This document shows, piece after piece, positions 37,176 to 42,049 of a stretch of 64,000 bases of DNA (the first letter of the stretch is position 1; every line of letters starts with the position of its first letter). A model generated the notes under the pieces. It had not been told where the DNA came from and searched no databases. It was given only the letters and a program-made list of their open reading frames with translations. Source of the DNA: Betaproteobacteria bacterium (GTDB lineage: Bacteria > Pseudomonadota > Gammaproteobacteria > Burkholderiales > SG8-39); assembly GCA_004298385.1 (NCBI GenBank), contig SCTX01000082.1:1-64000 (forward strand), given 5' to 3'. The translations under genes were made by a program, and so were the position numbers.

Positions 37176-38183
37176 TCAACAGTAAGTGGGGCGTCCGCTA
37201 ATGGCATAGCGCGGATCGTTGAATCCCGGCGTTGACGGGTGCCCGCTCTTGACCATGGAATCGACGAGCGCCTCGTCCTCCGCGGAAAAACGATGCTCCA
37301 GCGCACCCAGGTACTCGGTCCATTGCTCGAACGTGCGCGGCCCCGCCAGCACCGACGTGACGATGCGATTGTTGAGCACCCAGTTGAGCGCGAACTGGCC
37401 CGCGCTCATGCCGCGCTTCCCCGCATGCGCCTTGAATTTCTGTGCCATGGCAAGGGACTCCTCGCGGAACTCGGTCTCCATCATGCGCTTGTCCTTGCGC
37501 CCGGCGCGGCTGTCGGCGGAAGGCGCCTCGCCCGGCACGTACTTGCCGGTGAGCACGCCGCGCGCGAGCGGGCTGTAAGGCACCACGCCCAGGCCGTAGC
37601 AGGCGCAGGCCGGCAGGATCTCCGTTTCCGGCATGCGGTTCATCGCGTTGTAGTAAGGCTGGCATACGATCGGCGCCGGCAGGCACAGCTTGGCGCACAG
37701 CTCGGCGATCTGCGCGATGCGCCAAGCGCGGTAGTTCGATACGCCGAAATAGCGCGCCTTGCCCGAGCGAATGATGTCGCCCATCGCGACCAGCGTTTCT
37801 TCGATCGGCGTGTCGGGGTCGTCGTGGTGCAGATAATAAATATCGACATGGTCCATGCCCAGGCGTTTCAGGCTGCCGTCGATTGCGCGCATGATCCAGC
37901 CGCGCGACAGGCCGGTTTCGTTGGGGCCCTTGCCCATGGGGTTGCCGACCTTGCTCGCCACCACCCACCGGTCGCGATCATCGGCAAGCAGCTTGCCGGC
38001 AAGCCGCTCGGATTCGCCCCTGGCGTAGACGTCGGCGGTGTCGATGAAGTTGATGCCCGCGACTCGCGCCGAATCGACGATGCGGCCCGCTTCGGCGGCG
38101 TCGGTGCTCGCGCCGAACATCATCGTGCCGAGGCAAATGGGCGAGACTTTGATGCCGCTATTGCCCAGTTTGCGATATTCCAT
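37176..38183 (-). CDS. Aldo/keto reductase
   Basis: 335 residues, cytoplasmic. AKR tetrad: Asp and Tyr in NFIDTADVYARG, Lys in VASKVG, His in YLHHDD; SNYRAWRIAQ and GLGVVPYSPLARGVLTGKY are typical of the AKR11/YajO-like group. Physiological substrate unknown. GGGAG precedes the ATG. The first ten codons and leader of this gene are repeated 320 bp upstream, just after rimO, on the far side of repeat copy B, suggesting the gene once followed rimO directly. Confidence 0.92.
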   Translation of the reverse strand: MEYRKLGNSGIKVSPICLGTMMFGASTDAAEAGRIVDSARVAGINFIDTADVYARGESERLAGKLLADDRDRWVVASKVGNPMGKGPNETGLSRGWIMRAIDGSLKRLGMDHVDIYYLHHDDPDTPIEETLVAMGDIIRSGKARYFGVSNYRAWRIAQIAELCAKLCLPAPIVCQPYYNAMNRMPETEILPACACYGLGVVPYSPLARGVLTGKYVPGEAPSADSRAGRKDKRMMETEFREESLAMAQKFKAHAGKRGMSAGQFALNWVLNNRIVTSVLAGPRTFEQWTEYLGALEHRFSAEDEALVDSMVKSGHPSTPGFNDPRYAISGRPTYC

Positions 38184-38239
38184 GTCACTCTCCCTTAAAG
38201 AACACTATCATCCTTAGCGCGACCGAGGATCCCTCTTTT

Positions 38240-38474
38240 CTATACGTGGCGACGTAAATTGCGCCCTCGTTGTTACACAATTGCGATGTTGCGCGGACGA
38301 GAAGCCGTCCGCGCGGATCGTCGATTGCGCGCGGATGAAAAGCGCATCCGCACGCAATCGACGATCTTGAATAAAACCCCCACGGCCTGTTTGGTGTTAA
38401 CAATAACAGTGTTTTCTGTACGGATGCGCTTTTCATCCGTACAGAAAACACGGTTGGCGCGCGCAGCGCGCAAA
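38240..38474. repeat. Dispersed hairpin element, copy B (reverse orientation to copy A)
   Basis: Read on the minus strand it has the same order as copy A: GC palindrome, hairpin I (arms 38405-38426 and 38434-38455, 21 of 22 pairs, loop CGCTTTT), a spacer with a GTGGGGGTTTTAT block, hairpin II (arms 38316-38337 and 38345-38366, 21 of 22 pairs, loop AAAAGCG), hairpin III (perfect 9-bp arms 38291-38299 and 38306-38314) and the tail to CTATAC at 38240. It lies between rimO and the aldo/keto reductase gene and abuts the duplicated gene start at 38475. Confidence 0.88.
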
Positions 38475-38517
38475 GCCGCTGTTGCCCAGTTTCCGATATT
38501 CCATGTTCCTGTTCCCT
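38475..38517 (-). pseudogene. Duplicated 5' end of the aldo/keto reductase gene
   Basis: The minus strand reads a ribosome-binding site, ATG at 38504-38502 and codons for MEYRKLGNSG, then runs into repeat copy B. It matches 38154-38195, the true start of the reductase gene, in about 36 of 42 positions; within the codons the differences are silent (CGG/CGC, AAC/AAT). It starts 13 nt after the rimO stop. It is a long direct repeat flanking the element, with about 45 nt of other sequence between element and repeat on the reductase side. Confidence 0.75.
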
Positions 38518-39876
38518 CTATGCAGCGAGTCGTCCCCACAAATCGTGCGCGTCGGCGCGCTCGATCTCGACCGTGGCCCAATCACCCGGTTTGAGTTTCT
38601 TGCCGTCGGTAATAATCACCAAGCCGTCGATTTCCGGCGCATCAGCCGCGGAGCGCGCGAGCGCGCCGTCCTTGTCGACCGCATCGACCAATACCTTGAG
38701 CGCCTTGCCGACCTTGCGCTTGAGGCGCCGCCGGCTGATTTTCTCCTGCACCGCCATGAAACGCGTGCGCCGCTCCTCGCGCACGACCTCCGGCACCTGG
38801 TCGGGCAGCACGTTCGCCTTCGCCCCCTCGACCGGCGAATAGGCGAAGCAGCCGACGCGGTCGAGTTCGGCTTCCTCGAGAAAATCGAGCAACTGGCGGA
38901 ACTCGGCTTCGGTCTCGCCCGGAAAACCGGCGATGAAAGTGCTGCGGATGGTGATGTCCGGACAGATGGCGCGCCAGGCGCGGATGCGCTCGATGTTCAT
39001 CTCGCCCGAGGCCGGCCGCTTCATCAGCTTGAGGATGCGCGGGCTGGCGTGCTGGAACGGCACGTCGAGATAAGGCAGGAGCCTGCCTTCGGCCATCAGC
39101 GGAATGACTTCGTCCAGGTGCGGATAAGGATAGACGTAATGCAGGCGCACCCACAAGTCCCCGGCGGATCCACCGAGTCCGCACAGCGCGCGCACCAGTT
39201 CGGTCATGCGCGTCTTCAGCGGGCGGCCCTGCCAGAAGCCGGTTCGGTACTTGATGTCCACGCCGTAGGCGCTGGTGTCCTGCGAGATCACCAGGATTTC
39301 TTTCACCCCGGCCTTGGCGAGGTTCTCCGCCTCCTGCATCACCTCGCCTAGCGGCCGGCTCACAAGGTCGCCGCGCATGGATGGGATGATGCAAAAGGCG
39401 CAGCGGTGGTTGCAGCCTTCCGAAATCTTGAGATAGGCATAATGCGCGGGCGTGAGCCGCACGCCCTGCGGCGGCACCAGGTCGGTATGGGGATCGTGCG
39501 GCCGGGGCAGGTGCGCGTGCACCGCCTGCATCACTTCCCCCGCGGCGTGCGGCCCGGTCACGGCCAGTACCTTGGGATGGGCTTTGCGCACGATGTCGCC
39601 CTTGGCGCCGAGGCAGCCGGTGACGATCACGCGTCCGTTCTCCGCCAGCGCCTCGCCGATAGCCTCGAGCGATTCCTCCACCGCGGAATCGATGAAACCG
39701 CAAGTGTTCACCACCACCAGATCGGCCGCTTCATAGGAAGGCGAGACGGCGTAACCCTCTGCGCGCAACTGCGACAGGATGCGCTCCGAATCGACCAGCG
39801 CCTTGGGGCAGCCGAGCGAAACGAATCCGACCTTAGGGATATCGGCGGGGACGGCAGTGAGTTTTGAACGGGTCAA
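38518..39876 (-). CDS. rimO: Ribosomal protein uS12 methylthiotransferase RimO
   Basis: Radical-SAM enzyme that adds a methylthio group to Asp89 of ribosomal protein S12. 452 residues. The N-terminal UPF0004 domain has the cluster cysteines at 23, 59 and 88 (SLGCPK, VNTCGF, TGCLG); the radical-SAM core has CNHRCAFC (155, 159, 162); a C-terminal TRAM domain follows ([15 protein letters not shown]...). Intact. phaR lies upstream on the same strand with 15 bp between. Confidence 0.96.
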
Positions 39877-41614: not shown

Positions 41615-41707
41615 AATTGCTCATCCTTTTTCGATGCGGTCCGGTACCGCCTCTACCAATCTTACCGAACGATTATGGCATCAAATCGACGCGCATCCTA
41701 ACGCGGT

Positions 41708-42049
41708 CGCTGGCCGCAACCAAAATGACCAGAACATTCGCGCTGATGTGGCAATCGTTGCGGGGTAATTGCATAACCCAGTTTTCTGAACGGATGTGCT
41801 TTTCATCCGTTCAGAAAACTGGGTTGGCGCGCGCAGCGCGCAGGTTTTGGCAAGACCTGCGCGGACGAAAAACCGTCCGCGCGGATCGTCGCTTGCGCAC
41901 GGATGAAAAACGCATCCGTGCGCAAGCGACGATCTTGGATAAAACCCCCACGCCATGTTTGGTGTTTACCTTAGCGCTGCCGCTGGCCGCAACCAAAATG
42001 ACCAAAACATTCGCGCGGATGCGGCAATTGTCGCGGAGTAATTGCATAA
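41708..42049. repeat. 69-bp direct repeats bracketing hairpin element copy C
   Basis: 41708-41776 and 41981-42049 are 69-bp direct repeats with 6 mismatches (about 91% identical). Both begin CGCTGGCCGCAACC and end AATTGCATAA. They flank element copy C: the first ends inside the first two bases of hairpin I, and the second begins about 10 nt beyond the element spacer. Both lie between the two phaB genes. Confidence 0.9.
41775..41970. repeat. Dispersed hairpin element, copy C (permuted order)
   Basis: Hairpin I: arms 41775-41796 and 41804-41825, perfect 22 bp, loop TGCTTTT. GC palindrome 41826-41842. Hairpin III: perfect 9-bp arms 41859-41867 and 41874-41882. Hairpin II: arms 41884-41905 and 41913-41934, perfect 22 bp, loop AAAAACG. 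The spacer block with the AAACCCCCAC-type sequence then runs to about 41970. Compared with A and B the module of palindrome plus hairpin I stands at the other end, a circular permutation. Confidence 0.88.

Follow-up and report, generated by a model that had tools for sequence, protein, structure and literature searches.

In this study we found that the start of an aldo/keto reductase-type gene is present twice at its junction with the neighbouring gene rimO in an uncultured betaproteobacterium, and the doubling looks like the scar of a recombination between two versions of the junction rather than the footprint of a hairpin repeat that inserted there. Our analysis concerns a window (the whole stretch of DNA analysed) of 64,000 nucleotides from a 3.5-Mb genome, designated G000, and 13 relatives of the same genus, all of them draft metagenome-assembled Betaproteobacteria. 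On balance we favour a chimeric origin, which we hold to be reasonably probable, whereby an empty allele was joined to a repeat-bearing allele by illegitimate recombination, with short-tract exchange later.

The genes and the repeat are on the reverse strand, and are described here in the direction of the reductase gene. The junction begins at the end of a ribosomal protein S12 methylthiotransferase gene (38518..39876, stop codon 38518-38520), presumably rimO, a label given by an earlier sequence-only reading of the window; its orthologues are 86-94% identical across 12 same-genus genomes. It is followed by the remnant of a reductase gene start (38475..38517; ribosome-binding site, an ATG at the complement of 38502-38504, and ten codons), by the core of a repeat that we term copy B (38289..38473), running from TTGCGCGC through two long hairpins to GTCCGCGCAA, and by the complete right arm of this copy (38240..38288), ending in ...GTCGCCACGTATAG. 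Hairpin 1 (38405..38455) and hairpin 2 (38316..38366) each have 22-bp arms, 95% complementary, and a 7-nt loop. A spacer similar to the right half of a second type of hairpin repeat (TGTCATTCCGAG...CTCGGAATGACA, the ATTCC type) occupies 38199..38239 on the same strand, and leads to the intact reductase gene start (38154..38198; ribosome-binding site, ATG 38181-38183, ten codons) of an intact gene of 335 aa (37176..38183) that has orthologues in same-genus genomes. An Rfam scan of the window returned zero matches.

The doubling of the gene start, first proposed in the sequence-only reading, is borne out: 38154-38194 and 38475-38515 form a direct repeat of 41 nt with 35/41 matches (85%) at a spacing of 321, and the pair is unique within the window, where the next-best place for the 41-nt start on either strand has fewer than 24/41 matches. 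The remnant ATG lies 13 nt past the rimO stop codon, also as proposed. Two further claims hold in part. The remnant was said to lie directly against the element, which is so on the remnant side; on the other, 41 nt (38199-38239) separate the right end of the repeat (38240) from the intact start. The copies were also said to differ only silently, which is true of G000, where the ten codons contain two differences, CGG/CGC (Arg) and AAC/AAT (Asn), both silent, and is not true of the other species that carry a remnant, as described below.

Copy B belongs to a hairpin-rich, non-coding repeat family with ~45 copies in its own genome. The core of this family comprises TTGCGCGC, hairpin 1, a linker, hairpin 2, a small hairpin and GTCCGCGCAA, to which longer copies add a left arm of ~43 nt (TATATACGGCGTC...AGAGCGGCCA) and a right arm of ~49 nt (...GTCGCCACGTATAG). 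The left arm that many other copies possess is missing from copy B, and the remnant occupies its place. Repeat matches number one to three per genome in G012, G003 and G006, and ~20 or more in the other same-genus genomes. Bacterial MITEs and short intergenic hairpin repeats are short, non-coding, mostly intergenic sequences with strong hairpins, present in dozens of copies. The window repeat is like them in all of these respects and in its terminal inverted repeats (core ends TTGCGCG/CGCGCAA; outer ends, roughly inverted, TATACG/CGTATA), but differs in that no transposase partner was identified among the Y1_Tnp genes looked at, and in that any target duplication of the full-length form would amount to at most a few bases. 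REP elements likewise exist as many intergenic hairpin copies, and have RAYT (Y1 transposase) partners. The window repeat parallels these in its many intergenic hairpin copies, and Y1_Tnp genes are present in 11/14 genomes of the genus; in contrast to REP elements, its fragments lie near a single one of the Y1_Tnp loci read (in G010), and no Y1_Tnp match was obtained in G002 or G008, incomplete genomes that are both repeat-rich. Y1 transposases were rejected as the mobiliser on the ground that this one locus alone lies near repeat fragments. At the locus in question (L230, G010:C409), two repeat fragments in permuted order (1023-1170) are found a few hundred bases from the Y1_Tnp (PF01797) gene.

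Comparison of the rimO-reductase junction among the relatives revealed empty sites with one gene start in three genomes. In G011, the sister of G000 on both flanking genes (support 98/99 and 100/99), rimO is followed by 16 nt and then by a single gene start, the repeat being absent, and the junctions of G008 and G003 are likewise empty with a single start. Given such repeat-free, single-start junctions in close relatives, something was added to a junction of this kind, and to that extent the earlier view of an original rimO-reductase junction invaded by an element stands. The G011 assembly has an estimated contamination of 7%, and it also contains a second, more distant rimO-like gene (G011:C147:3085-4398) with 62% identity to the window rimO.

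What does not stand is the duplication of ~42 bp of target that was thought to have accompanied the insertion, whereby the repeat would have entered the reductase start and the insertion reaction would have copied the ~42 bp that rebuilt the gene. The empty one-start sites would fit such a history, as would the TAT at codon 3 of both G000 copies, absent from every other start or remnant seen, and the identity of the two G004 copies over ten codons. Yet host sequence does not directly flank both ends of a complete element here, with the left arm gone on one side and, on the other, a 41-nt gap that resembles a different repeat. Nor do other copies of the family have duplications of like length: a flanking direct duplication was detected in 1/30 complete copies of the own genome, this being copy B itself (score 29), with the next score of 14 within the range of mismatched pairs; the 29 other complete copies lack one, as do 11 out of 11 copies in other genomes. 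The orthologous empty sites of the copies L005 and L007 contain no long duplication, and for a copy at 41.8 kb of the window the orthologous G011 site is empty and any duplication is <=5 bp. Finally, the relative G001 lacks a remnant although the repeat occupies the junction there. These points largely refute the target-site duplication model, to which we attach very little probability.

The 41.8-kb copy (window 41699-42049) has its halves swapped, the hairpin 1 half and the hairpin 2 half being permuted, and lies between 78-nt direct repeats that are 88% identical. The whole unit recurs in the own genome (e.g. G000:C32:669-1029, 91%) and in G011, and thus represents a separate subfamily. Its direct repeats were considered as a second long duplication and rejected, both for the recurrence of the unit together with its 78-nt ends and for the limit of 5 bp at the empty G011 site.

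Further states of the junction were found in the remaining relatives. In G012, G013 and G002 a complete ATTCC-type repeat is the only element that separates rimO from the one gene start; when the window spacer was compared with the right half of this repeat, shuffled sequences that matched as well numbered 0/2000 for G002 (the best), 18/2000 for G013 and 82/2000 for G012 (weaker). In G001 the order is rimO, a left part of the ATTCC repeat, a left arm, the core, the right flank known from the window, and the gene, a reading that rests on two contig ends joined by overlap; here no remnant was found, although the repeat is present at the junction. Depending on the species, the junction (L044, L045, L046, L047) has taken at least three hairpin repeat types, namely the window repeat, the TGTCATTCCGAG type and, in G006, a TGTAGGAGCGAGCTTGCTCGC type.

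The remnant is carried by five genomes (G000, G004, G010, G009 and G007), all with a common left breakpoint between GGCN and TTGCGCGC; three of these, G010, G009 and G007, have lost the right arm of the repeat through a deletion that runs from one CGCGC stretch to another. The remnant frame extends for 23 codons to a stop inside hairpin 1, and is equally long in all five carriers because they have this joint in common. In G004 the remnant is identical to the gene of its own genome over all ten codons; that of G010 has missense changes, and the start codon has been lost in G009 (ATC) and G007 (CTG). Given these lost start codons and missense changes, the remnant is probably non-functional. It had been suggested that the remnant was kept by once being read, or that little time has passed, both of which are at odds with its decay in three of the five carrier species and with an arrangement that spans at least four lineages. 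The ribosome-binding sites of the remnants look like those of empty alleles; in G004 this site (AAGGGGAGCATGAACATGG) equals the G011 sequence.

Two types of allele, both of which occur in the genus, would be the parents of the chimeric junction that we favour. The empty type would consist of rimO, the ribosome-binding site and the reductase gene, and the filled type would possess the older ATTCC hairpin repeat between rimO and the reductase gene, with copy B inserted into that repeat. An illegitimate crossover would then have connected codon 11 of the empty allele's reductase gene with the left part of copy B in the filled allele, probably at the shared short stretch AGCGGC, or up to CAACAGCGGC. 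The product would owe rimO and the first ten codons to the empty allele; what is left of copy B, the end of the older repeat and the complete gene would come from the filled one. The gene start would thus be doubled because the two alleles overlap, and the downstream reductase gene would never have been broken. Subsequent homologous recombination of short tracts at these starts may have carried the arrangement from lineage to lineage, reshuffled it or eliminated it. Remnant ribosome-binding sites of the empty type, such as that of G004, together with downstream ones that are accompanied by the tail of the other repeat, fit such an overlap. We infer the order of these events, the microhomology and the mechanism from the junction sequences; no reciprocal or intermediate allele was found among the relatives.

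At the joint itself the rimO side is continuous and AGCGGC lies next to the repeat core on the other side. This stretch occurs in the gene and in many left arms at similar distances from the core, and the fit of the intact gene's codons to the left-arm profile in the five carriers is equalled by ~0.5 to 2% of random 12-mers, which is suggestive and lends modest support to a microhomology at the joint. The breakpoint is the exact end of the repeat core as well, and the core end may instead have been joined directly. The odd TAT codon shared by the two G000 copies and the identical codons of G004 would need gene conversion or duplication after the lineages split, and suggest conversion between the copies or a later origin. 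Across the five genomes, a permutation test gave a weak signal that remnants are most similar to the gene start of their own genome, with 5/120 permutations as low.

A fragment of a gene start upstream of a whole gene could also be produced within one chromosome if the reductase gene, or its start, had been duplicated in tandem, the repeats had inserted between the two copies, and what remained of the first copy had been deleted. Short repeats do serve as end points of deletions at this junction, as illustrated by the right arm lost between the CGCGC stretches of G010, G009 and G007. However, no second reductase gene, full or partly deleted, was found at the junction in any of the 13 relatives searched, which likewise speaks against the simple gene duplication that the sequence-only reading had named as the alternative to its own. 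The remnant moreover has one and the same end point in all five species, and extra steps would be required for the single-start alleles with the other repeat (G012, G013 and G002). We consider a tandem duplication unlikely.

On a tree of two linked genes, rimO and the reductase gene, monophyly of the five remnant carriers is rejected (AU p = 9e-5), and G000 and its sister G011 differ in the state of the junction. An identical breakpoint in five non-monophyletic species points to an exchange among lineages at a later time. In G009 a short recombined tract at the reductase start is seen directly: its gene has 0/30 differences from that of G001 in the first 30 nt and 120/900 further on, versus 10/30 and 40/900 from that of its sister G007 (p = 1e-6). 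Horizontal exchange may accordingly have caused the patchy distribution, which would be explained by later exchange or by loss, and we rank neither as dominant.

Loss would be the main process if the arrangement had arisen once, in the ancestor of the genus, and had then been inherited vertically, with repeated precise slippage between the two starts leaving empty sites. Precise deletion is known to result from slippage where direct repeats flank hairpins, and here it would give exactly the G011 type of sequence; the identical breakpoint in all five carriers would also be accounted for. Against this, the carriers are scattered, and slippage between the starts of a chimeric junction could not produce the intact older-repeat junctions of G012 and of G013, the sister of G010, which leaves a single ancient origin unlikely.

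Three other sources of evidence were tried and dropped. Junction divergence relative to fourfold sites was low, and suggestive of recent transfer, in the non-sister pairs G000-G004 and G010-G007, and this test was abandoned when a control, an orthologous repeat copy elsewhere, proved about equally conserved. A tree of repeat cores, intended to show whether the junction copies have a common origin, was poorly resolved and not decisive (p-AU 0.053), and rpoB was complete in too few of the draft genomes to serve as a species marker.

The chimeric junction has a parallel in natural transformation, for which the joining of DNA at a few matching bases beside an anchored homologous stretch is an outcome described in PMC6382021. 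Such homology-facilitated illegitimate recombination is known in Acinetobacter baylyi, Pseudomonas stutzeri and Streptococcus pneumoniae (cited in PMC6382021). The present junction is similar in that one side lies over long homology (rimO) and the other was apparently joined at a few bases, but differs in being a junction deduced from sequence in uncultured bacteria, with a short microhomology modestly above chance.

Although speculative, and to our minds improbable, the doubled start might itself serve as a pair of homology arms, whereby a repeat cassette enters and leaves empty junctions precisely by homologous recombination, without transposition and between species, the gene always remaining intact. 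If the doubled start does drive such gain and loss, the junction would offer a case, open to testing, in which host recombination moves a repeat cassette. The locus across 13 related genomes also provides a record of short-tract exchange at one intergenic junction, which has hosted at least three hairpin repeats. Duplication of host sequence beside a mobile repeat is commonly read as a target-site duplication, and recombination between alleles can imitate one here.
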